A DNA stretch of 64,000 bases from an uncultured Bdellovibrionales bacterium (lineage in GTDB: Bacteria; Bdellovibrionota; Bdellovibrionia; Bdellovibrionales; Bdellovibrionaceae), in the NCBI GenBank assembly GCA_903926205.1, contig CAIYID010000091.1:1-64000 (forward strand), read 5' to 3'. The notes beneath the pieces are model-generated. The model saw only the letters and a program-made list of their open reading frames with translations. It did not search any database and was not told the DNA's origin. The position numbers and the translations under genes are program-made. Positions 2,122 to 63,989 of the stretch are shown here, one piece after another. The stretch's first letter is position 1. Each line of letters starts with the position of its first letter.

Positions 2122-3030
2122 TCATTTGGGGGCCAATTTAGTACGCTGATATTTTGATCGTAAATAAAAAGGAATTAATATCAGGAACAAGAGCATTAAG
2201 AAAAAGCCACCGCCAAATTGCACAAGACGTAAGCTCATCAGCGAGTATTTACTTTTGTGTGGATCATACTGGAAGCAATAGGAAATGAGTTTGTCTCCTA
2301 AGGAGACCGTTTTTCCGTCCATGGCATCGAGCAAAGCCAGTTTCACATCACGAGGATCGAAAATAATTCCATGTAAATAACGAGATATTTTCCCCTCAGG
2401 GCTTAAAATTGTTGCAGCAGAAGCGTGGATCCATTCTTTATTTTTTTCATCCCATTTATATCTAAAGCCGATACTGTTTGTGATTTTTTTAATTACATCC
2501 TCATTTGCAGTAACAAAGTGCCAACCCCTTTCCGTCCCTGCGCGGTCATACAACTTTAAATAAGTTTCCTTTTTTCGAGAGCCAACCTCAGCGGTTTCCT
2601 TAGCGTCGAAACTCAGAGCTATAACTTCAAAATTTTGGCCAGGGCTCCATTCCATTTTTTTTAAACCCGTAGTGAGGCCGTTTAAGTGATAATTGCAAAG
2701 TCCTGGACAAGAAAAATACACCAAACTCAAAATCACGGGTTTCTTGCCATCAAAGAATGATTTTAAAGGAACCAATTTTCCTGATTCATCTGTAACTTGT
2801 AGAGACAAATCAATTCTGTCGCCAAGTTTTTCATCGATACCGATGCCTTCAAGTTCAGGCGATTTTTCTGACAAAGGTTTGTCTGCTTCCGCACTGGATT
2901 GTGATTCTAAAAGAGCAACGGTTTGAGCTTCTGCCCGTTGGCCGAGGGCGAAGATTGTCGCAAATAAGACAAAAAAAATCTCGAGTTTTAATGTTTTTTT
3001 TCTAGTTTGATTAGACAACGAGACCGCCAT
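2122..3030 (-). CDS. SCO1/SenC-family copper chaperone for cytochrome oxidase
   Basis: The protein has an N-terminal hydrophobic export segment, a thioredoxin-like SCO domain and a C-terminal membrane helix ending in basic residues. The copper ligands are visible as SCPGLC (CxxxC) in the first third and the conserved His in SRYLHG later. SCO proteins deliver copper to the CuA site of cytochrome c oxidase in the periplasm. The first ATG is at 3030; a GTG at 3036 and a TTG at 3033 are also possible. Its start overlaps the end of the SDR gene by about 20 nt, and ctaB follows 41 nt downstream, so the three form an operon. Confidence 0.85.
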   Translation of the reverse strand: MAVSLSNQTRKKTLKLEIFFVLFATIFALGQRAEAQTVALLESQSSAEADKPLSEKSPELEGIGIDEKLGDRIDLSLQVTDESGKLVPLKSFFDGKKPVILSLVYFSCPGLCNYHLNGLTTGLKKMEWSPGQNFEVIALSFDAKETAEVGSRKKETYLKLYDRAGTERGWHFVTANEDVIKKITNSIGFRYKWDEKNKEWIHASAATILSPEGKISRYLHGIIFDPRDVKLALLDAMDGKTVSLGDKLISYCFQYDPHKSKYSLMSLRLVQFGGGFFLMLLFLILIPFYLRSKYQRTKLAPK

Positions 3031-3772
3031 CAACACTTATAACGGTGCCATTAATATAAGAAGCTTGTTCAGATGCTAAAAATAAACAGGTGTTCGCAAT
3101 GTCGGTAGGCTCTCCTAGGCGGGCGGCAGGAACTTTTGCGGTCATTTGGTCCAAGACTTCTTTGGGTACAGCTTTGGTCATGGCGGTTTGGATAAAGCCA
3201 GGCGCAATTGCGTTCACTGTCCAACCTTTGCGAGCCAATTCTTTACCCCAGGTTTTTGTCATGCCGATGACGCCAGCTTTTGCGGCAGCATAATTGGTTT
3301 GTCCAAAATTTCCATAGAGTCCAACCACACTAGAAATATTGATGATGCGTTTATGTAAGGAAGTCTGATTAAACTTTTCAAACAAGGCCTTTGTTACATT
3401 GAAAAGGCCAGTGAGGTTTGTTGAAATGACCGCGTCCCAATCCTCGCCTGTCATTTTTGCAAAAGACTTATCACGAGTGATGCCGGCGTTGTTCACCAAG
3501 ATATCCACAGCCCAAGGGAGGCTTGCGACGGCATGAGCGCAGGACTCCCGTTGGCCCACATCAACTTTTGCGAGATGAAGCTGAGAGGTAAATCGGGAAA
3601 GCTCTGTTTTTGCATTGGCTAAGGCTTGTTCAGAATAATCCCAAATAGAAACCTTAGCCCCAGCTTCCAGAAATTGGAGAGCAATTTGAAATCCAATTCC
3701 TTGTGCTCCTCCAGTGATAACTGCGGTTTTATTTTGAAATTGAAATTGTAGATTGCCCTGCATGCCAGCCAT
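3011..3772 (-). CDS. Short-chain dehydrogenase/reductase, FabG-like
   Basis: This 253-residue cytoplasmic NAD(P)H-dependent reductase has the SDR signature in order: TGGAQGIG (Rossmann dinucleotide site), NNAG, the catalytic Ser in INISSVVG, and YAAAK (Tyr and Lys). The closing INGTVISVDGG is typical of 3-oxoacyl-ACP reductases and acetoacetyl-CoA reductases. The start at 3772 is chosen because GGAGG lies seven bases upstream; a longer frame from 3808 lacks such a site. Its link with SCO and ctaB is physical (overlapping genes), not an obvious pathway link. The substrate, a fatty-acid or polyhydroxyalkanoate intermediate, cannot be settled from sequence. Confidence 0.85.
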   Translation of the reverse strand: MAGMQGNLQFQFQNKTAVITGGAQGIGFQIALQFLEAGAKVSIWDYSEQALANAKTELSRFTSQLHLAKVDVGQRESCAHAVASLPWAVDILVNNAGITRDKSFAKMTGEDWDAVISTNLTGLFNVTKALFEKFNQTSLHKRIINISSVVGLYGNFGQTNYAAAKAGVIGMTKTWGKELARKGWTVNAIAPGFIQTAMTKAVPKEVLDQMTAKVPAARLGEPTDIANTCLFLASEQASYINGTVISVDGGLVV

Positions 3773-4632: not shown

Positions 4633-4660
4633 CTTGACAAGATTTGGGGGCGCTCCATAT
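4633..4660 (+). promoter_or_regulatory. RpoH (sigma-32)-type promoter of groESL
   Basis: CTTGACA at 4633-4639 and CTCCATAT at 4653-4660 are separated by 13 nt. The sigma-32 consensus is CTTGAAA, 11-16 nt, CCCCATNT, so only one or two bases differ in total. No CIRCE inverted repeat (TTAGCACTC/GAGTGCTAA) is seen upstream of groES. An RpoH-like factor is encoded at 21950-22960. Confidence 0.6.
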
Positions 4661-4723
4661 TGGTGTCGTTGTTTTAAACAATGGCATAGATGGCCTAAAA
4701 TTATAAATAAATAGGAGGATATT

Positions 4724-5026
4724 ATGGCTAAGCACGAAGTGAGTGTTCGCCCCCTGCATGACCGCCTTTTGGTTCGTCGTACAGCGGAAGAAGAAAAAAC
4801 CGCCGGTGGATTGTTCATTCCAGACACGGCAAAAGAAAAACCACAAAAAGGTGAGATTATCGCTTGTGGAAAAGGCCGAGTGACTGAAGATGGAAAAGTT
4901 CTTCCCTTGGAAGTGAAAGTTGGCGACCGTGTTCTTTTCGGAAAATATTCTGGCACTGAGCTTAAAATTGATGGCCAGGAATATTTGATGATGCGCGAAG
5001 AAGATATTTTAGGGATTGTCCAATAA
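4724..5026 (+). CDS. groES: Co-chaperonin GroES
   Basis: At 100 residues it has the normal GroES length. It opens with [12 protein letters not shown], has the mobile loop GGLFIPDTA that contacts GroEL, and ends with the typical EEDILGIV. It caps the GroEL folding chamber in the cytoplasm. It has a strong AGGAGG ribosome site and lies 60 nt before groEL in the same operon. A second GroES-domain protein with a long basic extension is encoded at 34054-34596. Bdellovibrio is known to carry two groES genes and one groEL. Confidence 0.97.
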
Positions 5027-6954: not shown

Positions 6955-8460
6955 ATGGCGACAAAGTGGAAGTCCTTTTCGGCACTAAAAAACATGTTCC
7001 GCAGTCTCATCTTTTTTGGTGTGTGGCTCGGTCCTCTTTTTTTTCTGTATTATTGCAGCTGGGAATTCGCAAAACCATTTCTTAAAAACCTAAATAATTC
7101 TTCCTGGAAATTTGTTTTTTTTGCTGTGGGCTGGTGGTTGCTCAGCTGGATTTCTATGTATTTCCTACAGACAATTTGGCCGGTGTTGCTTTTGATCTTT
7201 TATCGAACGGAGCGAGAACGGTCGCCGAAAAAAATCATTAACATTGGTGAGCGATTTCGAAATATGAAGCTTCCTGCTCCTCAAATATTTATCCTTCAAG
7301 GAAATTCACTTTTGTGGAAAAATAAAGTTTGGGGATTTTTCTTTTTACCAAGTCCGTTGGGTGCCCTAATGTTGATGGCTCCTGAGACTCAACAGTTTTC
7401 GGCCGAGATGTTAGACGCCTGGATTTGTCGAAAGGTTATAGAGTCTGGTTTCAGTCGATTTTCTTCAGCTAGATTTTTATTTTTTTCGTGGGTGCCAACA
7501 CTCACCTTATTGGGAGCCTTTGCGGGCTCGGCCTTTTCAGGTCAGGATGTACAAGTCATTTGCATGAGTACTCTTGGTTTTTTAATTTTTTCCCTATTTA
7601 TCTGGAGAGATTTGCAAATTCAAAGACAGTATGAGATCGATCGAAAAACAGTAAGCCATTTTCAACTTGAGCCAAAGGAATATTATTCTTACCTTGAGCT
7701 TTGTGAAAAACTTGCACCAAGTTTGGGCTTTGTAAGAAAAATACTTGGCTATAATTTTGAGGCTAGCAAAATAGCCATTGAGAAACCAACTTGGTTTCGC
7801 GCATGGATTCCTTGGATTTTGCCTCCGTCAATTTTAGGGATTTTTATTATTAATTTTTTTATTTTAACGCCTTCGAAGGAAGTTGTATCATTTTTATCCG
7901 TGGATTTATCTGTGGAAAAAAATATTTTTTCTTTTGTAGAAAAAATCAAAGTTTCATTTGAAGAGAAAAGTATTGCAGAAAAAACTTCTTCTGAAACGAA
8001 GAGTTCATCAGAGGAGAAAACATTGCCGTTCATTCGGCAGAATGAACTCAGCCAGGCGGTGATTAATGGAGATTTACGTTCTGTCATTCATCAGGTTGGA
8101 TTGGGAAAGAACATTAACAGTGGGGATCTTGCGCTGAATGGCGCAACGCCGCTCATGCTAGCATTGAAAAATGGGGACTTGGAAATGGCATATTTTCTGA
8201 TGGCCATAGGTGCAAACCCTCAAATTGAAACTGATTCCTTAGGACAAACAGCGCTTTTTTACGCCACAGAAGCTATTAACCGACAACAAGTGATAGCTTA
8301 TATGTTAAAGACGAGTGTAGATGTTTATAAAATAAATAATGAGGGCTTGACCGTCTTGGATTACGCCAAGAAGAATGGGCAAAATGATGTTATTGAGCTT
8401 CTGTTGAATCGAAGTATTGCATCCGAGCCTTCATCTGAACCCGTTTCATCAGGAAAATAA
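6955..8460 (+). CDS. Membrane protein: degenerate M48-like region plus ankyrin repeats
   Basis: This protein of about 500 residues has two N-terminal membrane helices, then a cytoplasmic segment laid out like the M48 peptidase HtpX (PAPQIFIL, then LMAPETQQFSAEMLDAWICRKVIE, then two more membrane helices and QRQYEIDRKTV). M48 enzymes have AHELGH where this has DAWICRKVIE, so the zinc motif is absent; QYEID would match the usual EYEAD. A further helix and a Ser/Glu/Lys-rich linker lead to three or four ankyrin repeats (e.g. NGATPLMLALKNGDLEMAYFLMAIGA). It is probably a non-catalytic membrane scaffold, which is inference. ATG 6955 is chosen; GTG at 6946 is possible. It stands alone between two other transcription units. 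Confidence 0.5.
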   Translation: MATKWKSFSALKNMFRSLIFFGVWLGPLFFLYYCSWEFAKPFLKNLNNSSWKFVFFAVGWWLLSWISMYFLQTIWPVLLLIFYRTERERSPKKIINIGERFRNMKLPAPQIFILQGNSLLWKNKVWGFFFLPSPLGALMLMAPETQQFSAEMLDAWICRKVIESGFSRFSSARFLFFSWVPTLTLLGAFAGSAFSGQDVQVICMSTLGFLIFSLFIWRDLQIQRQYEIDRKTVSHFQLEPKEYYSYLELCEKLAPSLGFVRKILGYNFEASKIAIEKPTWFRAWIPWILPPSILGIFIINFFILTPSKEVVSFLSVDLSVEKNIFSFVEKIKVSFEEKSIAEKTSSETKSSSEEKTLPFIRQNELSQAVINGDLRSVIHQVGLGKNINSGDLALNGATPLMLALKNGDLEMAYFLMAIGANPQIETDSLGQTALFYATEAINRQQVIAYMLKTSVDVYKINNEGLTVLDYAKKNGQNDVIELLLNRSIASEPSSEPVSSGK

Positions 8461-8542
8461 TTCAAATCATTATTTTAGAAGTTACTTTTTTATGAAAAGT
8501 TTTAAAACAATTTTTACAATACATTTTTAAGAGGCTAGTTTT

Positions 8543-9031
8543 ATGTCGGATAATTTTTTTTCATTTTCAGTGAAAGATGCTAAGGAAAAAGTTCACGAGC
8601 TATCTGCTTACAAAGGCAAAGTCATATTAGTTGTTAATGTCGCAAGTAAATGCGGCTTTACTCCACAGTATACGGGTCTTGAGGCTCTTTACAAAACCTG
8701 GGAAACAAAAGGTTTAGTTGTTTTGGGATTTCCCTGCAATCAATTTGGTTCTCAGGAGCCTGGCACTGATGCTCAAGTGCAGGAATTCTGCCAAATGAAC
8801 TATGGTGTTACTTTTCCGGTAATGGCAAAGGTCGATGTCAATGGAGGCAATGCTGAGCCAGTATATAAATGGATGAAAGCCGCCGCTCCCGGTTTGTTGG
8901 GTACGGAGGCTATTAAGTGGAATTTCACAAAGTTTCTGGTAGGAAAAGATGGTCAGGTGATTGATCGTTATGCGCCCACAGTTGAGCCAGAATCAATCAC
9001 CCCGTTTATTGAAAAAGCTTTGAAGGCTTAA
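8543..9031 (+). CDS. Glutathione peroxidase family (thiol peroxidase, Cys form)
   Basis: At 162 residues it is a standard-length bacterial GPx/BtuE-type peroxidase. The active-site block VNVASKCGFTPQY carries the peroxidatic Cys (not selenocysteine). GFPCNQFGSQEPG supplies the Gln and KWNFTKFLV the Trp and Asn of the catalytic tetrad. It reduces hydrogen or lipid peroxides, probably with thioredoxin as donor as in most bacterial Cys-type members. It is cytoplasmic, with no signal sequence. It has its own short AT-rich leader, and its end overlaps the convergent SPOR gene by four bases. Confidence 0.93.
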   Translation: MSDNFFSFSVKDAKEKVHELSAYKGKVILVVNVASKCGFTPQYTGLEALYKTWETKGLVVLGFPCNQFGSQEPGTDAQVQEFCQMNYGVTFPVMAKVDVNGGNAEPVYKWMKAAAPGLLGTEAIKWNFTKFLVGKDGQVIDRYAPTVEPESITPFIEKALKA

Positions 9032-49604: not shown

Positions 49605-50192
49605 TTGAACACTCCATTTTTAGTGGTCATGGCGATGAAAGAAGAGTCCCAAGGCCTTTTTGAAGCCAAAGGAATTTCAGTCGTTTACACGGGACTCGGG
49701 AAAGTGAATGCTTCCTATCATTTGACAAAGAATATGACCTTGCGAAAAGCCGGAGGTTTTCCGATCAAGGCAGTTTTTAACTTTGGGACCGCCGGAAGTT
49801 TTACTTTGCCCACTCATTCGACTGTGGAGTGTCGCGCATTTGTGCAGAAAGACATGGATGTATCAGCCTTGGGGGTTCCACATGGAGAGACTCCCTTCGA
49901 AAATACTCCATTGATGCTAGAGGTGCCGCGATTTTTATCACATTTGCCTACAGGTATTTGTGGCACAGGCGATAAATTTGAAACGCAAGCCTCCGTGGTG
50001 CCCTGTGATGTTGTAGATATGGAAGCCTATGCTTTGGCAAAAATTTGCTGGTTTGAAAAAATCCCTTTTGTTTCTGTGAAGTACATCACTGATGGCTCTG
50101 ATGATAATGCTCATAAAGATTGGCAAGAAAATTTGCCAGCCGCAGCTCAATCCTTTGTGAAAGTTTATGAAGATCTCATCAAGCTTTTTTAA
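49605..50192 (+). CDS. Nucleoside phosphorylase / MTA-SAH nucleosidase family
   Basis: The 195-residue protein has VVMAMKEESQGLF, TGLGKVNASYHLTK, NFGTAGS and VDMEAYALAKICW, with a Ser/Asp pair in ITDGSDDNA. These are the substrate-pocket motifs of the PNP/UDP family, most like MTA/SAH nucleosidase (MtnN), which releases adenine from methylthioadenosine or S-adenosylhomocysteine. It is shorter than typical MtnN. The start is TTG with a GAGAGGA site. It may recycle SAM by-products, including those of radical SAM enzymes. Confidence 0.8.
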   Translation: MNTPFLVVMAMKEESQGLFEAKGISVVYTGLGKVNASYHLTKNMTLRKAGGFPIKAVFNFGTAGSFTLPTHSTVECRAFVQKDMDVSALGVPHGETPFENTPLMLEVPRFLSHLPTGICGTGDKFETQASVVPCDVVDMEAYALAKICWFEKIPFVSVKYITDGSDDNAHKDWQENLPAAAQSFVKVYEDLIKLF

Positions 50193-51403
50193 CCAGATTT
50201 AAGCTCTTGATGAACACTCACTCGAACCAATTGCAAAATAGAAGATGCCGATCCTATTAATGAGAAGGCAATTCCTTGAATAAAAAGAATTAGGATCCAG
50301 AAACTTCCCGAGCTTTGGTGAGCAGGAATAAGCCAGGTAGAGCTCAGCATATTTTTAAGAATGGCGAAGCTAATGAACTCAAGCACCACGGCCAGAGTGG
50401 ATGAGAATAAGCCGATAATAACGGATTCTAATATCATCCAAGTAAAAATAAAACGATGCTGAAAGCCAATGGCTTCTAACGTTGCAGCTGATACCCTGAG
50501 TCCTTCAGAACGAATCGACATCATGCCAAAAATCGAAAAACCTGCCAGACACAAAATAACGACAATAATGGCAAGGCCCAAGTTCCCGGCCGAGCCAGAC
50601 AATTCTTCCAAGTTTTTTTTCTCTTCATTGACCCAAATGATTTGGGCCACTGAGCGATCATTGATTAATGACTTCAGCGGCAAAAAACCTTTTTCCTGCA
50701 TCTGAATCAAAAAGAAACTTAATATTTTATTATGCCAAATAGGATGGTCATACCCGCTTTGACGAAGGAGATCCCAGCCACTTTCCATTCGAAGAAAGAA
50801 GCCATAGTCCCAACCTGAAGATTGCTCCGGTAGGATTCCAGCAACTTTAAGAGAAACTTTTTTGTTATTATTGCGCAATTCAATTTCAACGTTCTCATTG
50901 GTATGCAAATGATAAAGCTCGGCGGCTTTGGCGCCTATAAGTAGGCCGTTATCCGAGGGGAAGTTCATTATTGCTGAACTTTCCAGTTTCAAAATTCGAA
51001 AAAAACTTTCGTCCGTTGCGATCACCTTTGAAGACTGAAAATGTCCTACTTGCAACATGGGGATTACATTTTTCGTGATTTGAGCTGAGGAAATCACTGC
51101 GCCATCTTCAAAACGCAGATCGGTTCCGTTTTTGAGTGTTTCAAACAAATTGAGCGGTAGCGCAAACTGGCAGCGATCTTCCAAGTTAAGCGCTCCTAAT
51201 AAAATTTCAATCCCTCCGCATTTGGGACCAACTACGATTTGAATATTCGTGGCCATATTATTAAAGCGACTTTCGCTGATTTGATAAAGTCGTAACAAGA
51301 GCCCAGAGCCTGTGAGTGCCATGGCTAAAGACATAATCATCACGATACTTTGGAGTTTCTTTCTTGTTAAGTGCAACCAAGCCATCTTTATTGGGTTGAT
51401 CAT
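50189..51403 (-). CDS. ABC transporter permease, FtsX/MacB-like
   Basis: The 404-residue protein has one N-terminal helix, a large periplasmic domain and three C-terminal helices. The FtsX signature is visible (AIIVVILCLAGFSIFGMMSIRSEGLRVSAATLEAIGFQHRFIF in outline). Such permeases, with a LolD-type ATPase, extrude lipoproteins or drive cell-envelope mechanotransmission. It overlaps the ATPase gene by four bases. Confidence 0.85.
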   Translation of the reverse strand: MINPIKMAWLHLTRKKLQSIVMIMSLAMALTGSGLLLRLYQISESRFNNMATNIQIVVGPKCGGIEILLGALNLEDRCQFALPLNLFETLKNGTDLRFEDGAVISSAQITKNVIPMLQVGHFQSSKVIATDESFFRILKLESSAIMNFPSDNGLLIGAKAAELYHLHTNENVEIELRNNNKKVSLKVAGILPEQSSGWDYGFFLRMESGWDLLRQSGYDHPIWHNKILSFFLIQMQEKGFLPLKSLINDRSVAQIIWVNEEKKNLEELSGSAGNLGLAIIVVILCLAGFSIFGMMSIRSEGLRVSAATLEAIGFQHRFIFTWMILESVIIGLFSSTLAVVLEFISFAILKNMLSSTWLIPAHQSSGSFWILILFIQGIAFSLIGSASSILQLVRVSVHQELKSG

Positions 51404-52026
51404 TTAAGAATCTCCCGAAAATCGATTTTTTGTTCAAAAAATTTTCTTACTCTCGCATCATGAGATACGACAATCAGAGATTTGTTTCTAGCAGAACTCA
51501 CTAAGAGTTGCATCACTCGCTCGGCATTAGCGTCATCTAAACCAGAGGTAGGTTCATCAGCTAAAAGCAGAGAGGGCTCGGAAATTAAAGCTCTGGCGAC
51601 GGCGGCTCTTTGTGTTTCACCGAGACTTAGGGTTGAAGGCAAATGATTCAATCGATGGGTGAGCTGTAAATTTTCTGTCAATTTGTCGATTTGTTTAGCT
51701 TGGTGGGCGTTTTGACATCCAAGAAGAATATTCTCTATAAGAGTTAAATGCGGTAGCAGATGAATCTTTTGAAAAATAATTCCGCAATTTTTTCGGCGAA
51801 ATTGAATAAGATCGTGCCCGCTCAGGTTTTTGATGCTGACCCCACTAATTTTAATCTCGCCATTTTGAAAGGGAAGAAGTCCTGCTAACAAATGCAGGAA
51901 AGTCGTTTTGCCGGAGCCACTAGGCCCCTCAAACAATAAATGACTGTTGCTCGGCAAGCTCCATTGAGGAACTTGAAGACTGAAATCTCCCATTGAGATA
52001 TTAAGTTGACTCACTTCAATATGCAT
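51400..52026 (-). CDS. ABC transporter ATP-binding protein, LolD/MacB-like
   Basis: The 208-residue ATPase has Walker A GPSGSGKTT, Q-loop IIFQKIHLLPHL, signature LSLGETQRAAVARAL (LSLGE for the usual LSGGQ), Walker B LLLADEPTSGLDD and the switch His in VVSHDARV. It energises the FtsX-like permease it overlaps. The start at 52026 (MHIEVSQLN) gives normal family length; a longer frame to 52140 overlaps the divergent DoxX-like gene. The substrate may be a lipoprotein or peptide. Confidence 0.88.
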   Translation of the reverse strand: MHIEVSQLNISMGDFSLQVPQWSLPSNSHLLFEGPSGSGKTTFLHLLAGLLPFQNGEIKISGVSIKNLSGHDLIQFRRKNCGIIFQKIHLLPHLTLIENILLGCQNAHQAKQIDKLTENLQLTHRLNHLPSTLSLGETQRAAVARALISEPSLLLADEPTSGLDDANAERVMQLLVSSARNKSLIVVSHDARVRKFFEQKIDFREILK

Positions 52027-52119
52027 AGTTTTAGATGATCTCAGCGGAGTACTGAGTGGGCAAATAAAATCAGCAAAAAATAGGTGACGAACCAAAGAAA
52101 TCAGAGCTATTGAGACCTT

Positions 52120-52509
52120 ATGAATGAAACAGTCTTGCAAATTTCCCGATTTTTGGTTGCCGCCAATTTTTTATTTTTTGGACTTGATGGGTTTTTTCAT
52201 TTTTTACCTCCACCAGCTCAAAGTGCTGAAATGAAAAAGTTTGTGGAAGCTATTCTTGCTACTCGCATAATTTTTCCAACGGTCAAAACGATTGAAGTGA
52301 TTTGTGGTCTTCTTTTGTTTGCAAATTTATGGACCCGCTTGGCGCTGTTTCTTTTGGTACCCATTGTTTTTGGAATATTATGTTCTCAGATTTTATTTAA
52401 TTTAAAAAAAGGATACTGGATCACTATTCTAACGGTGGTCCCGTACCTAATTCTTTTAGTCCATGACTGGACGAATCTAATTCAATTCCTTACAGATCAT
52501 TCATTGTAA
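52120..52509 (+). CDS. DoxX-like membrane protein
   Basis: The 129-residue protein has four membrane helices (ISRFLVAANFLFFGLDGFFHFLPPP; FPTVKTIEVICGLLLFANLW; LALFLLVPIVFGILCSQIL; WITILTVVPYLILLVHDW). The layout and the GLDGFFHFLP and EVICGLLL blocks match DoxX/DoxD-like quinone-interacting families. Function in redox balance is family-level inference. It is divergent from the ABC ATPase gene, and its end overlaps the next minus-strand gene by nine bases. Confidence 0.7.
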   Translation: MNETVLQISRFLVAANFLFFGLDGFFHFLPPPAQSAEMKKFVEAILATRIIFPTVKTIEVICGLLLFANLWTRLALFLLVPIVFGILCSQILFNLKKGYWITILTVVPYLILLVHDWTNLIQFLTDHSL

Positions 52510-58821: not shown

Positions 58822-58848
58822 ATGGGGTCAAAATAATTTTGGCCTCAT
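58822..58848. repeat. Imperfect inverted repeat overlapping the -24 region
   Basis: ATGGGGTCAAAAT and ATTTTGGCCTCAT are near-perfect complements (two wobble pairs). The right arm contains the TGGC of the sigma-54 promoter. It could be a regulator site or the end of the upstream transcript; no T-run follows. Confidence 0.45.
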
Positions 58849-58855
58849 ATTTGCA
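58839..58855 (+). promoter_or_regulatory. Sigma-54 (-24/-12) promoter of the radical SAM maturase operon
   Basis: TTGGC at 58839-58843 and TTGCA at 58851-58855 give exactly GG-N10-GC, as required for RpoN, and fit YTGGCACGRNNNTTGCW at the -24 TTGGC and -12 TTGCA elements. The predicted transcription start near 58866 would favour translation starts downstream of 58872. The last gene of the operon encodes an NtrC-type sigma-54 activator. Confidence 0.65.
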
Positions 58856-58904
58856 GTTTTAGCCCTCGGCTTTGCCTGAGGTGCATTTGGATACCGTATT
58901 TTCG

Positions 58905-60272
58905 ATGAAACAATTTGATGACCTGATTGCGATTCGCTCTTCTAAGGGACGAGTCGTTGGTTTTCATACAAAAAACCTCGAGATCGCGCGTTTGTCCGAG
59001 CAAGCCTGGGAGCAAGGCCTTAAGCTGAATGAGGTTCGCGCGTGGAATTCTCAGCAGAAATCGAAAGAACTCTCGTCATTTGAAACAGATGACAACTGCG
59101 AAGAGAGTGCTGATGAAACTCAGAAGCAGAGCCATAAGCCGTTGAATTATCAAGTTCGGGCACTGTCGATCAATGTGACTCAGATCTGCAATCTTCACTG
59201 TACTTACTGCGCGGCTGGCGGCGATGGGAGCTATGGCGATCCCGTGAAAAAAATTGCCGTGGACAAAACTCTGCCTCAAATTCAGTTTTTTATGGGAAAA
59301 TTATCACCAGGAGATGAGTTCCGGCTGACTTTTTTGGGTGGAGAACCCTTGTTGTATCCGGAAGCGATTTTGCTTTTAGCTGAGTACGCGCAAGAGTTCG
59401 CGGCCGTTCGGCAAATTAAAACTCAGTTCGTGGTTGTGACAAATGGCACTCAATTTACTGAGAGAAATATTGAAATTCTCGATAAGATCAAAGCAAATAT
59501 TACGATTAGCCTAGATGGCCCGCCAGAGGTGAATGATCTGCTTCGACCGAATCGGGCTGGTTTTGGGGTTACTCATTCCATCATTGCGGGACTGCGAAGC
59601 CTTTTGGATCAAAAAAAACAGAGCAAGAAAAACATCGGCTCTGTGGGAATTTCAGGGGTTTTTGGCTCGAAAAACATGAATTTGGAAAAGGCCTATCGAT
59701 TTTACAGTGAATTTCCAGTCCAATGGTTCGACTTTACTTACGATCATTTGGAAACTCGTGAACAGGTCAATTGGGAGTTCACGCAGGAATTGCTCCATGT
59801 CGGTGCTCTTGCGTTTGCCAAGGGTGGAGAACAAGAGCTTCGTCGAATCAAAATTTTTGATCAGTACTTCCAAGTTTTTGATTCTCAGAAGATAAATAAC
59901 AATTATTGTGGTGCTGGGAAGACTTTTTTAATGGTGGATGCGCGCAACCAGATCTACACCTGTCCCTGGGTTGTTGGCGATAGCAAAGAGGTCGTTGGTC
60001 AAGGAACCACTCTTTTTCAGGAAAAATTGAGTGGTTATTCCCAAGATCTTATTGTGCAAAATAATTGTCAAAATTGTTGGGCCAGCGCCATTTGTGGCGG
60101 TGGCTGTATGTATATTCATAAAAACAAAACTGGTGATAAGCACCAGGTAGACCCTAATTTTTGTTCTCGAACTCGTGAGTTGATTGCAACTTCTCTTCTG
60201 TATTATGAAGAGAGTCGAGGTTTGTCCACTCAAGTTCAAGAGGTCATCGAAGGCGAACAGATCTTAGGCTGA
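58905..60272 (+). CDS. Radical SAM/SPASM peptide maturase
   Basis: The enzyme of about 455 residues has an N-terminal region of some 85 residues (IRSSKGRVVGFHTKN then a helical, charged linker) that resembles peptide-recognition (RRE-like) modules. The radical SAM core has CNLHCTYC (CxxxCxxC, near residue 95), LGGEP and a VVTNGT strand. The C-terminal SPASM domain has NYC, TCPW, then CQNCWASAICGGGC (exactly CX2CX5CX3C) and a last Cys in FCSR for two auxiliary clusters. Such enzymes crosslink precursor peptides. ATG 58905 is preferred given the predicted transcript start; TTG at 58872 or 58887 is possible. A 55-residue peptide gene follows by 32 nt. Confidence 0.88.
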   Translation: MKQFDDLIAIRSSKGRVVGFHTKNLEIARLSEQAWEQGLKLNEVRAWNSQQKSKELSSFETDDNCEESADETQKQSHKPLNYQVRALSINVTQICNLHCTYCAAGGDGSYGDPVKKIAVDKTLPQIQFFMGKLSPGDEFRLTFLGGEPLLYPEAILLLAEYAQEFAAVRQIKTQFVVVTNGTQFTERNIEILDKIKANITISLDGPPEVNDLLRPNRAGFGVTHSIIAGLRSLLDQKKQSKKNIGSVGISGVFGSKNMNLEKAYRFYSEFPVQWFDFTYDHLETREQVNWEFTQELLHVGALAFAKGGEQELRRIKIFDQYFQVFDSQKINNNYCGAGKTFLMVDARNQIYTCPWVVGDSKEVVGQGTTLFQEKLSGYSQDLIVQNNCQNCWASAICGGGCMYIHKNKTGDKHQVDPNFCSRTRELIATSLLYYEESRGLSTQVQEVIEGEQILG

Positions 60273-60304: not shown

Positions 60305-60472
60305 ATGAAACAAAATTCGGAAGCATTAAAACAGGAGCCTGAAATGGAAAATGTGAAAGCAGAAGAAAAAAACTTAAAAGAGGCCGCTCAGGTGCATGTG
60401 CAAAAAATTAAGCCTTTGAAAACAACAACACAAACTCCGGCGGATCCCGGCTGTCGCCCAACAGGGACTTAA
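60305..60472 (+). CDS. Putative RiPP precursor peptide
   Basis: The 55-residue peptide has an AGGTGG site four to five bases before its ATG. Residues 1-38 are charged (Glu/Lys/Gln) and helical, like a leader. The tail reads TTTQTPADPGCRPTGT, with one Cys (position 50), no aromatic residues and many Thr/Pro/Gly, like a modifiable core. It lies directly after the maturase gene, and its stop overlaps the kinase start (TAATG). No signal peptide or double-Gly cleavage site is clear. The assignment rests on position and composition. Confidence 0.72.
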   Translation: MKQNSEALKQEPEMENVKAEEKNLKEAAQVHVQKIKPLKTTTQTPADPGCRPTGT

Positions 60473-62382
60473 TGGCAACGCCTCCTCCCTTGTTAAAAGA
60501 GGGTGAACCAAAGAAATCCCGCAGTTTTCGCCGAAAAGCGATTCTTAGTGCTGTGCAAGTCATTGTGGCGTTGCTCATCACCCTGGTGCTGACGGGAATT
60601 TCTTTTGATTATATTGAAAGTTATTTTTTTGATTTTAGAGTTCGGAATCGATATCAGCCAAAACCTTCAGGTCATGTTGAAATCGTTCTGATCGATTCGG
60701 CAACAGTTCAAAGATTTAAAGCCGTTCCTGGATTCAAAGAACACGCCGTACTTCTTGAAAAACTACAAACACAAAATCCAGCTTCTGTCGTGTATGTTCG
60801 CCCTTTTGCTCCTCTCAAAGAAGAAGTGTCGAATGGTGATCTTCAGCATGCACTTTTGACCGGTACGGAGCTGGAGCAACGAGAGTTCGCAAAAGTGGCC
60901 TCGTCAGTCCATAATTTTTATTTACTTACCGACTCAATGCATATGGTCGCAGAGCAAAAAAATCTCACGCTGATTCCACCTTTTAGTGAACTTAATGTGG
61001 GCTCTGGCCCTAAAACTTCGGATCGAAATATCTTAGCTAGAGACGGAGTCAGTCGGCGTATTTTGATTTCTTACCAAGGGCAACTTCTGCTGCATCCTCA
61101 GTTGGCTGGGCTTTTTAATCAGGAGATTCATAAGCCTGAAAATATCAGAGGATCCATTGAGCTTTTTGACTCACAACAAGTGTACATTGACTATGTTGCT
61201 CCAGGACGTTTTAGCACGACTAAATTTGAAGATATCTTGGATGGGAAAGTTGATTTGACCAAGTTTAACAATAAATTGGTTTTAATCGGTGATGATATTG
61301 GTGCCAGTGCGCGAGACTATGTTTCCACTCCATTCAGTCGGGAAGCGACGATGACGGCCACTGAGCTCCACGCAAATATGTTTGATACACTCATTCGAAA
61401 CTCAGCGGCTCGGCCATTGCCAAAATGGTTTGACAGTCTTGTGACTTTTTTAATTGGTGCACTCACCTTGTCGATTTCTCTTTCTCTGCGGCCTACGAAA
61501 GGGATTTTGATTCTACTCAGCACAGGTCTCGGGTTTGCTATTTTAGCTTGGTTTTCATTCTGGATTTTGGGAATTTGGATTGAAATGGCCCACCCGATAT
61601 TGGCCATTTTTACCTGCTATTACTTTTTTATTCCCTACCGATTGATTATCGAAAATCGTCGAAGCTGGGAATACTATCAAAAGCATAAGCTGCTTCAGCA
61701 GGTCGAAGAGATGAAAACGAATTTTATTTCGATGATTTCCCATGATCTAAAAACCCCAATTGCTCGTATCCAAGGAATGACCGAAATAATTGCTCGTGAC
61801 AAAGTGATCATTAGTTCGACTCAACAGGAGGCCGTCGATACGATTCGTTCTTCTTCTGTTGATTTGCTGGGAACAATTAATTCCATTTTGAATTATGCCA
61901 AAATTGAAAATCAAGGCGTAGAGCTCCACTTGGAGGCAAAGGACATCAATGAACTGGTGAATGAGGTGGTTCTTCGTCACGAGTTTTTGGCTAAACTCAA
62001 ACACATCAGAATAACGACGGATTTAGAGCCACTATTCAGCAGTTCTGTTGATCCAGAACTCATGAAACAAGTGTTTTCCAACTTACTTGAGAATGCGATC
62101 AAGTACAGTCCTGATAGTTCTTCCGTAAAAATTCGAACTCGTGAAGTCGATGGATTCGTTAACATCGAATTTATTGATAATGGTCATGGGATTCCTGAGA
62201 ATGAACTTCCTCTGGTTTTTATGAAATTTTTTCGCAGTAAAAATGCAAAAAGCTCTCCGATTAAGGGATCGGGCCTTGGGCTCTATTTGGCGAAGTATTT
62301 AATTGAATTACATCGCGGTTTTATTTTTGCTGAAAGCTCCACTGGAAAAGGCACGACTTTTACGGTAAAACTACCTCTGTAA
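60472..62382 (+). CDS. CHASE2-domain sensor histidine kinase
   Basis: The 636-residue kinase has a cytoplasmic N-terminus, one membrane helix (about 25-47), a large extracytoplasmic CHASE2 domain (FDYIESYFFDFRVRNRYQ; VEIVLIDSAT; later VYIDYVAPG and KLVLIGDDIGAS), then three membrane helices (about 318-395). HisKA has the phospho-acceptor SHDLKTP (His about 424), and HATPase_c has NLLENAIKYSPD, DNGHGIP and GSGLGLYLAK. CHASE2 senses extracellular signals. It is translationally coupled to the peptide gene (TAATG), with the response regulator 47 nt downstream. Confidence 0.93.
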   Translation: MATPPPLLKEGEPKKSRSFRRKAILSAVQVIVALLITLVLTGISFDYIESYFFDFRVRNRYQPKPSGHVEIVLIDSATVQRFKAVPGFKEHAVLLEKLQTQNPASVVYVRPFAPLKEEVSNGDLQHALLTGTELEQREFAKVASSVHNFYLLTDSMHMVAEQKNLTLIPPFSELNVGSGPKTSDRNILARDGVSRRILISYQGQLLLHPQLAGLFNQEIHKPENIRGSIELFDSQQVYIDYVAPGRFSTTKFEDILDGKVDLTKFNNKLVLIGDDIGASARDYVSTPFSREATMTATELHANMFDTLIRNSAARPLPKWFDSLVTFLIGALTLSISLSLRPTKGILILLSTGLGFAILAWFSFWILGIWIEMAHPILAIFTCYYFFIPYRLIIENRRSWEYYQKHKLLQQVEEMKTNFISMISHDLKTPIARIQGMTEIIARDKVIISSTQQEAVDTIRSSSVDLLGTINSILNYAKIENQGVELHLEAKDINELVNEVVLRHEFLAKLKHIRITTDLEPLFSSSVDPELMKQVFSNLLENAIKYSPDSSSVKIRTREVDGFVNIEFIDNGHGIPENELPLVFMKFFRSKNAKSSPIKGSGLGLYLAKYLIELHRGFIFAESSTGKGTTFTVKLPL

Positions 62383-62429
62383 AAAAAATGAATTCAGAAT
62401 TGGTCAAAAATTGTCAGGTGGGGAGTTTT

Positions 62430-63989
62430 ATGATTCGAGTACTTGTCGTCGATGATGATCAGGGGTTACGGCTCTCAGTAAAAGGTGCGCTTCAAGTTTC
62501 TCGCCAATTTTTAATTGAGGAAGCGCAAGATGGCCAAGATGGCGTAGACAAGATGAAAAAAAACAATTTCGATGTTGTTCTTCTTGATGTCGATATGCCG
62601 CGCCTTAATGGCCTCGAGGCACTTAAACAAATTAAAGAATTAAATCCTGGCACAATTGTGATTATGATGACTGCTTTTGCGGCGATCAATCAAGCTGTGC
62701 AGGCAGTGAAAGACGGTGCTTATAATTATTTGCAAAAACCTGTGGAATCCGAACACTTAATCGCCTTGATTGACCGTGCGATTGCCGCTAATAAATTGAT
62801 TTCCAATGTTGCGAACTCTGCGCCAATCATGATGGATAACGGCCGCAAAATTATTGGTAACAATCAGCAGATGGTTCGTGTCTTTAATATGATTAATAAA
62901 CTCAGCAAAGTGGACACTCCCGTATTAATTCGCGGGGCTTCAGGAACTGGTAAAGAATTGGTGGCGCGTGCGATCCACTTCAACTCTTCGCGCAAAGATG
63001 GAAAATTTGTTGGAATTAACTGCTCAGCAATTCCTGAAAATCTTTTTGAGAGCGAACTTTTTGGGCATGAAAAAGGAAGCTTTACAGGGGCGGATCAGCG
63101 CAAAATAGGAAAATTTCAATATGCGGAGGGCGGTACTTTATTTTTGGATGAAGTGGGCGATATGCCAGCATTGATGCAAGTGAAATTACTTCGTGTGTTG
63201 CAAGAAAAAGTATTCACTCCAGTTGGTTCTAATCGCGAAGTGCCAACGAATGTTCGAATCATTGCAGCGACCAATCGTCCGCTGGAAGAAATGATGAAAA
63301 CCGGCTTATTCAGAGAAGATTTATTTTATCGTTTGAATGTGATTCCTATACTTTTGCCTTCTCTTGTTGAACGCAAAGATGACTTAGATTCTATGGTTAT
63401 GATGTTCATTCGTAAATTCAATGATGCCCAAAGCAAGCGTATTACAGGAATCACTTCAGATGCCTTGGCGGTCTTGAAGAAGCACGATTGGCCAGGAAAT
63501 ATTCGTGAACTTGAAAACGTTATAGAGCACATGTTTGTCATGGAAAGCACTAGCCGGCTAACCTTAGCCTCTTTACCAAATTCAGTTCTGTCGGCCACGG
63601 GAACTGAGATTTGTGAAGTTGAGTTACAAAATGCTGCCGCTGTCCAAGAAAAAACAGAAAAACAAGGAAAAACGTTTTCCATCTCTGCTCAAGCAAATCA
63701 AAGTGTTGCATTGAATGATGATGATGACTTGGACTCTGATTTTTCCGAAAATGACAGCGACGAGGGAGCGCTTGAGGGCGCCGTGAGTTTTACTGTTTCC
63801 GCGTCTGCAGATGGGGTACTAGATTTTAACGCGCAAAAGGAAGCCTTCGAAAAAGAGTTTATCATTAAAGCTTTAAAAACTTTTGGTGGTCGAATTAACC
63901 AGACGGCTTTGCACGCAAATATCCCCAAAAAAACTCTGCTGAGAAAAATTGAAAAATATGGCATCATCGCTAAAGATTTTTCAGAATAA
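62430..63989 (+). CDS. NtrC-type sigma-54-dependent response regulator
   Basis: The 519-residue protein has a receiver domain (VLVVDDDQG; phospho-acceptor Asp about 53 in LLDVDMP; MTAFA Thr; LQKP Lys). The AAA+ domain has GASGTGKELVARAIH, the sigma-54 contact loop reading GSFTGA (usual GAFTGA), FLDEVGDMP and ATNRP. A long acidic linker and a C-terminal Fis-type HTH (GGRINQTALHANIPKKTLLRKIEKYGI) complete it. ATG 62430 is chosen for its GGGGAG site and because the receiver begins there. It probably activates the sigma-54 promoter at 58839-58855. Confidence 0.95.
   Translation: MIRVLVVDDDQGLRLSVKGALQVSRQFLIEEAQDGQDGVDKMKKNNFDVVLLDVDMPRLNGLEALKQIKELNPGTIVIMMTAFAAINQAVQAVKDGAYNYLQKPVESEHLIALIDRAIAANKLISNVANSAPIMMDNGRKIIGNNQQMVRVFNMINKLSKVDTPVLIRGASGTGKELVARAIHFNSSRKDGKFVGINCSAIPENLFESELFGHEKGSFTGADQRKIGKFQYAEGGTLFLDEVGDMPALMQVKLLRVLQEKVFTPVGSNREVPTNVRIIAATNRPLEEMMKTGLFREDLFYRLNVIPILLPSLVERKDDLDSMVMMFIRKFNDAQSKRITGITSDALAVLKKHDWPGNIRELENVIEHMFVMESTSRLTLASLPNSVLSATGTEICEVELQNAAAVQEKTEKQGKTFSISAQANQSVALNDDDDLDSDFSENDSDEGALEGAVSFTVSASADGVLDFNAQKEAFEKEFIIKALKTFGGRINQTALHANIPKKTLLRKIEKYGIIAKDFSE

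Follow-up and report, generated by a model that had tools for sequence, protein, structure and literature searches.

A putative single-cysteine precursor peptide in a radical SAM/SPASM and CHASE2 kinase operon of the Bdellovibrionales

In CteB, the maturase of the SCIFF precursor CteA (thermocellin), the open site of auxiliary cluster I (Aux I) bound the substrate cysteine (PMC8326336), and both this Cys-Aux I contact and the binding of the leader by the RRE have been published (PMC8326336, PMC6231123), as has the ligation of Aux I in CteB and in the anaerobic sulfatase maturase anSME, where Cys261 is one of the ligands (PMC6231123). PapB, the freyrasin maturase, forms S-C-beta thioethers. For clostridia, a link between ranthipeptides and quorum sensing has been described (Chen 2020, cited after PMC8326336); in general, little is settled about what ranthipeptides do, nor is much known of the signals by which predatory bacteria time their growth and division. 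The Bdellovibrio kinase genes Bd3359/Bd3360 have been reported as induced during predation (PMC2797640), by which we imply no correspondence with the locus described here. We analysed a window of 64,000 nucleotides from an uncultured bacterium of the Bdellovibrionaceae (GenBank assembly GCA_903926205.1, contig CAIYID010000091.1, positions 1 to 64,000), in which a short gene lies between a radical SAM (rSAM)/SPASM enzyme and a CHASE2 histidine kinase. With a probability of about 60%, we read this gene as encoding the precursor of a radical-SAM-modified peptide within a self-regulated two-component signalling operon (Table 1).

An earlier note on this DNA had claimed a short single-Cys peptide gene at 60305-60472, between a maturase and a kinase, and each element of that claim was found again: the open reading frame (ORF), a ribosome site of the AGGTGG type 5' of the ATG at 60305, a highly charged stretch of residues 1-38, a sole Cys at residue 50, and a TAA stop that overlaps the ATG of the kinase gene (60472) by one base. 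The 55-residue translation of the plus strand is MKQNSEALKQEPEMENVKAEEKNLKEAAQVHVQKIKPLKTTTQTPADPGCRPTGT. An alternative start, the ATG at 60344 with GGAG upstream of it, would yield 42 residues and retain all the conserved ones. The peptide matched no family in Pfam or NCBIfam.

Table 1. Features of the operon, in window coordinates
Feature	Position	Strand	Basis and remarks
Sigma-54 -24/-12 promoter element TGGCCTCATATTTGCA	58840..58855	+	TGG[CA]-N7-[TC]TGC pattern
Radical SAM/SPASM peptide maturase	58905..60272	+	Pfam Radical_SAM 4e-13; CX3CX2C and seven invariant SPASM Cys
Precursor peptide gene	60305..60472	+	55 aa, single Cys50; kept in 78/78 checkable relatives
Leader motif HVQKIKP (HIKK[IVL]KP in the family consensus), presumably the strand that the maturase recognises	60395..60415	+	25-peptide alignment, H and C invariant
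Core tail P-G-C-R-P-T-G-T	60446..60469	+	Residue counts around the last Cys; C-x-P in 72/79 peptides
CHASE2 membrane histidine kinase	60472..62382	+	Pfam and hydropathy: TM ~21-49, CHASE2 33-329, TM ~319-393, HisKA, HATPase
NtrC-type response regulator/sigma-54 activator	62388..63989	+	Pfam: receiver, AAA+ with GSFTGA, Fis-type HTH; conserved in the wide loci compared

Between the rSAM and CHASE2 kinase genes, all 78 loci whose contig reaches the kinase contain a short ORF that carries a Cys close to its C-terminus. Under a strict motif, 71 of these 78 gaps were positive, against a mean of 0.09 and a maximum of 2 in shuffled gaps; the ORFs in the remaining seven were picked by eye. Exactly one Cys is present in 77/79 of the resulting peptides, Pro stands at Cys+2 in 72/79 (C-x-P), and Gly, Ala or Ser directly precedes the Cys in 63/79. 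The C-terminus is reached four residues past the Cys in 36/79 peptides, and Cys+4 is R or K in 28/79 (the tail of many Bdellovibrio peptides reads CIPVR) and Asp in a single one of the 79. Of the seven peptides without C-x-P, six have C-P-E instead; in family f9 (L064, L067, L068, L071, L078) this C-P-E tail goes together with a longer charged linker, and the tail of L076 is C-E-I-V-Y-T, without Pro. Most peptides carry the leader (K)HIKK[IVL]KP or a near variant of it. Leader and single-Cys tail ([GAS]-C-x-P) are both conserved and are joined by a linker that differs in length, the leader-to-Cys distance being ~16 to 67 residues across the family and the linker reaching about 65 residues in the f7 genomes. 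No constant acceptor residue is visible at any one spacing from the Cys. The earlier expectation of a variable leader and a conserved tail was wrong in detail: conservation is found at either end of the peptide, and the part between them is variable.

The peptide is under purifying selection, with pN 0.136 and pS 0.475 summed over related pairs, values that are descriptive since the pairs overlap. Its reading frame is intact in close strains, the B. bacteriovorus-type genomes L031, L032 and L036 being nearly identical. In one locus, the only such case seen, two tandem precursor ORFs lie between the rSAM and kinase genes (L014 of genome G048, oriented positions 2825-2918 and 2943-3060). Random divergence of the tail across relatives and loss of the frame in close strains had been named beforehand as grounds for giving up precursor status; both were examined, and neither occurred. 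Precursor status is instead backed by the conserved leader motif, the conserved Cys tail, the frame kept in close strains, the purifying selection and the tandem copies. A RiPP precursor is generally recognised as a short gene next to a peptide-modifying enzyme, with a conserved recognition sequence and a conserved core, and this is what we find here; the ORF very probably encodes the precursor of a modified peptide. A nearly complete genome without the rSAM gene (L092, G039) has at the same place a Cys-less ORF of 42 residues (oriented 4646-4774), NGNGKPPF-rich and ending exactly at the kinase start, which is perhaps a decayed or repurposed precursor.

The rSAM gene more likely starts at the ATG at 58905 than at the alternative TTG at 58872, because the relatives start there and the sigma-54 promoter would put the transcription start almost at the TTG. 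The best NCBIfam match of the enzyme was PapB (NF047865; 4e-45), with 154 bits against a cut-off of 340, and the models of the SCIFF maturase (TIGR03974; 119.6 bits, cut-off 425) and of anSME (TIGR03942; 66 bits, cut-off 349) were likewise matched below their cut-offs. When a profile of 36 orthologues was compared with the PDB, CteB (5wgg) came first (1.7e-49) and anSME next (9e-23), followed by TigE, ChlB and SkfB. The three radical SAM Cys and the seven SPASM Cys are invariant in 53 orthologues, none of which has a Cys between SPASM ligands 1 and 2, the position of anSME Cys261, so that the fourth Aux I Cys is absent. In 53/53 the second SPASM ligand is followed by P, N, Q or V, where anSME has the Asp after Cys276, which we take to have a functional role. 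Because of this SPASM ligand pattern, with neither the fourth Aux I Cys nor the anSME Asp, we consider the enzyme CteB-like; judged on sequence, a SPASM domain whose Aux I, like that of CteB, is left with an open site places it among ranthipeptide maturases in the broad sense.

The leaders point the same way. The CteA leader co-crystallised with CteB (5wgg chain B), MKHIKILNGSTLKDSLKKGGC, follows the pattern MKHIKILN, and leaders of the present family (MKHIKKLN..., MKHIKKIRA..., HIKKIKP) are strikingly CteA-like. Since the leader resembles CteA and the enzyme resembles CteB, we infer a shared mode of recognition, in which the enzyme would bind its leader as CteB binds CteA. The N-terminal ~55 residues of the enzyme did not align to CteB at the sequence level, and an AlphaFold model of the enzyme from a two-row input had a pLDDT of 51, too low for an N-terminal recognition domain or RRE fold to be made out; a fold search with this weak model returned anSME and CteB alike.

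The operon, which runs from the sigma-54 promoter through the rSAM/SPASM, peptide and CHASE2 kinase genes to the sigma-54 regulator, occupies one chromosomal place across the order, and in every locus with enough contig the rSAM/peptide module lies directly 5' of the kinase and adjoins it. The regulatory side of the locus, that is, the conserved sigma-54 promoter and the kinase and activator partners, had been overlooked in the first reading. The sigma-54 pattern occurs within 200 bases upstream of the rSAM gene in 39/57 loci versus 1.4% of control 200-nt windows, and its strict form in 24/57 upstream regions versus 0.3% of controls; 18 of the 57 upstream regions contain no recognisable element. 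Transcription is predicted to start ~12 nt downstream of the element. Since the last gene of the operon encodes a regulator with the GSFTGA loop and an intact receiver, the simple reading is that the operon would be autoregulated by its own sigma-54 activator. Three kinase loci that lack the rSAM gene (L104, L105, L118) have sigma-54 elements 19-59 bases upstream of the kinase itself, and autoregulation may thus predate the peptide or have arisen independently of it. A small hairpin, CCTCGGC-TTT-GCC-T-GAGG, lies in the leader of the rSAM transcript (58861-58880), just 3' of the predicted start. In locus L127 (G030) the regulator gene is not 3' of the kinase; it stands divergently, directly upstream of the rSAM gene (oriented 7120-8661). 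Downstream of the regulator are a gene for a ~188-aa protein without a known family, then ileS, lspA and lgt. The ~188-aa protein (MTMNPLPPQAYT..., 64141-64707 in window-relative numbering, L120:14141-14707), which has no Pfam family, lies between the regulator and ileS in most loci compared. A 715-aa protein encoded upstream was considered as a member of the unit and rejected, being present in 2 of 10 other wide loci at ~20% identity.

Orthologues of the rSAM/SPASM enzyme were found in 81 of the 141 genomes of the order, usually in single copy, and were absent from the other sampled members of the class. A scan of GTDB contigs returned one close relative, from Bdellovibrio sp. UBA4095. The wider phylum holds one distant relative (genome G301; L145, 1510-2971, minus strand), whose gene overlaps an ORF, MKHVKKVKKLKK...KACSWMSDG, with a similar leader style and a single Cys, and which has no adjoining kinase on its short contig. 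The kinase is more widely distributed than the module, with a match in 120/141 genomes; about a third of the kinase-bearing genomes lack both rSAM and peptide, and the peptide is therefore not essential to every such kinase. On the kinase tree the module requires at least seven gains or losses, so that a single gain, or a single clade bearing the module, was rejected. The divergence of the rSAM enzyme correlates with that of the sensor half of the kinase (r = 0.87; at most 0.30 in permutations). Because the module keeps a fixed position upstream of the kinase and its enzyme co-diverges with it, the distribution fits an old inherited module that was repeatedly lost, gain being also possible.

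We propose the following mechanism. The leader would add a strand to the N-terminal recognition domain of the enzyme, as CteA does in CteB, and the lone Cys would bind the open iron of Aux I and form one non-alpha thioether with a residue close by. Whether trimmed or left whole, the finished product would act on the adjoining CHASE2 kinase, and the activated regulator would turn on the operon's own sigma-54 promoter, closing a feedback loop. The parts of this proposal differ in strength. The modification is likely centred on the Cys, and is probably a thioether rather than some other Cys chemistry. A single ranthipeptide-like thioether appears to be the likeliest product, because the seven SPASM Cys are invariant and both the fourth Aux I ligand and the anSME Asp are missing; one crosslink is plausible, unlike in sactipeptides with their several Cys. 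We lean slightly towards the peptide being a signal for, or modulator of, the adjoining kinase. A more tentative extension is a lineage-wide autoinducing or self-monitoring circuit in Bdellovibrio-type bacteria, in which the single-thioether peptide would be the dedicated ligand of CHASE2 and the sigma-54 regulator would drive the whole operon. CHASE2, lying between the TM segments, is expected to face the periplasm, and the peptide has neither a signal sequence nor a linked exporter; a role as direct CHASE2 ligand would thus need an unlinked exporter. The alternative is action of the peptide from within the cell.

Several other readings have to be weighed against this proposal. That the ORF is a chance frame or a non-coding spacer might be supposed from its shortness, its low-complexity charged N-terminus and its lack of a Pfam or NCBIfam family, but with the motif in 71/78 gaps where 0.09 would be expected from shuffles, and with purifying selection on the peptide, this has a negligible probability and was rejected. 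A more substantial alternative concerns the chemistry. The Cys could be oxidised to C-alpha-formylglycine, giving an aldehyde-bearing peptide, as the tail C-x-P-x-R is the motif by which anaerobic sulfatase maturases recognise sulfatases; the frequencies of C-x-P (72/79) and of R or K at +4 (28/79) agree with this, and anSME was both the second-best PDB sequence match and a top fold match of the weak model. However, the tail in the window, CRPTGT, has no R at +4, C-P-E replaces C-x-P in six of its seven exceptions, and to our knowledge anSME-type enzymes use no CteA-like leader. Moreover, the fully ligated Aux I and the following Asp that mark anSME are lacking here, since all 53 orthologues are without both the Aux I ligand Cys261 (for its role, see PMC6231123) and the Asp after Cys276. 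Attractive as the tail motif is, the enzyme ligands speak against formylglycine, which we consider quite improbable.

Radical SAM RiPPs are often exported antimicrobials, and the peptide might be an antimicrobial or prey-directed product that is exported, with the two-component system merely regulating it. The window does hold export-type genes, contrary to what the earlier note had stated: an ABC ATPase/FtsX-type permease pair at 50189-52140 on the minus strand, about 7 kb upstream, is the nearest. The statement holds to the extent that this pair has no conserved place beside the operon in the relatives compared, and that no conserved exporter was found near the operon among the wide loci compared. 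The peptidase-containing transporter that was to be looked for to the right of 64000 is absent up to about 69000 (window-relative), where the ~188-aa protein, ileS, lspA and lgt are found instead, and a search of the whole genome for C39 peptidases gave a single match, a 193-aa frame on another contig, and no recognisable exporter. Because the locus is fixed (one conserved chromosomal site beside ileS-lspA-lgt in the wide loci compared), has no immunity gene or conserved exporter, and encodes a tail that does not diversify but stays conserved from family to family, we consider an exported antimicrobial unlikely, and the vertical co-divergence with the kinase also argues against it. Alternatively, the peptide might stay in the cytoplasm or membrane, neither cleaved nor exported, and serve the kinase as a cofactor or third component that senses redox state or metals, with the Cys or a Cys-derived group as its reactive part. 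The lack of a signal peptide and of an exporter would suit such a role, as would the overlap of its stop with the kinase start in the window and the close spacing in most relatives, but linkers that are long and variable, with up to about 65 residues in f7, suggest that the leader is a mere handle, and we regard an intracellular sensor as rather unlikely. We read the locus as a putative self-regulated signalling unit, not as the source of an exported antibiotic.

The peptide gene seems to have been overlooked and is apparently undescribed: a literature search on CHASE2 with radical SAM enzymes, on ranthipeptides of Bdellovibrio and on single-Cys ranthipeptides returned nothing relevant, subscription papers and antiSMASH tables lying outside its scope. 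As precursor, enzyme, receptor kinase and sigma-54 regulator occur together in most sequenced Bdellovibrionaceae, the link from peptide to kinase is directly testable, and a one-Cys substrate would offer a simple system for the study of thioether formation by SPASM enzymes.

Among described systems, SCIFF (thermocellin CteA/CteB, TIGR03973/TIGR03974) is like the present one in several respects: the leader strand is of the form MKHIK[IK]L, CteB is the solved enzyme closest to ours (1.7e-49) and shares with it a seven-Cys SPASM domain in which the first ligand is of the CGxG type and the fourth Aux I Cys is missing, and SCIFF is likewise kept within one bacterial lineage rather than variable, with a signalling role proposed for it. 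However, the SCIFF precursor has six Cys in about 45 residues versus one Cys here, and the genes here share their operon with those of a CHASE2 kinase and sigma-54 regulator. The SCIFF precursor model TIGR03973 gave noise matches only, at other places, in 20 relatives, and no match to 10 precursors in hmmscan, where a SCIFF-like control sequence scored 71.7 bits. Freyrasin (PapA/PapB, NF047865) provides the best curated maturase match (154 bits), but PapB requires Cys-X3-Asp repeats and PapA has six Cys, whereas the repeats are absent here and the enzyme falls below the 340-bit cut-off. The streptococcal ranthipeptide NxxcA is similar in forming a single thioether from one Cys (PMC8326336), but its Cys23-Asn20 pairing, in which the Asn stands three positions N-terminal of the Cys, is not conserved here, and its context differs. 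Judged by its one Cys and the lack of a linked exporter, the peptide also falls outside the sactipeptides, which have several Cys, alpha-thioethers and a linked exporter or peptidase. With anSME the enzyme shares the radical SAM/SPASM fold, and the anSME substrate motif C-x-P-x-R resembles the tail; unlike anSME, it lacks the fourth Aux I Cys and the Asp, it carries an additional N-terminal region, and its system includes a leader peptide. The partner genes have the ordinary domain make-up of CHASE2 kinase/NtrC two-component systems, from which the locus differs in that a radical SAM enzyme and a peptide open the operon. The earlier suggestion of a new class is thus too strong, as the leader motif and the enzyme indicate a SCIFF- or ranthipeptide-like system with one Cys; what would be new is ranthipeptide-like biosynthesis with a minimal, one-Cys substrate inside a two-component operon.
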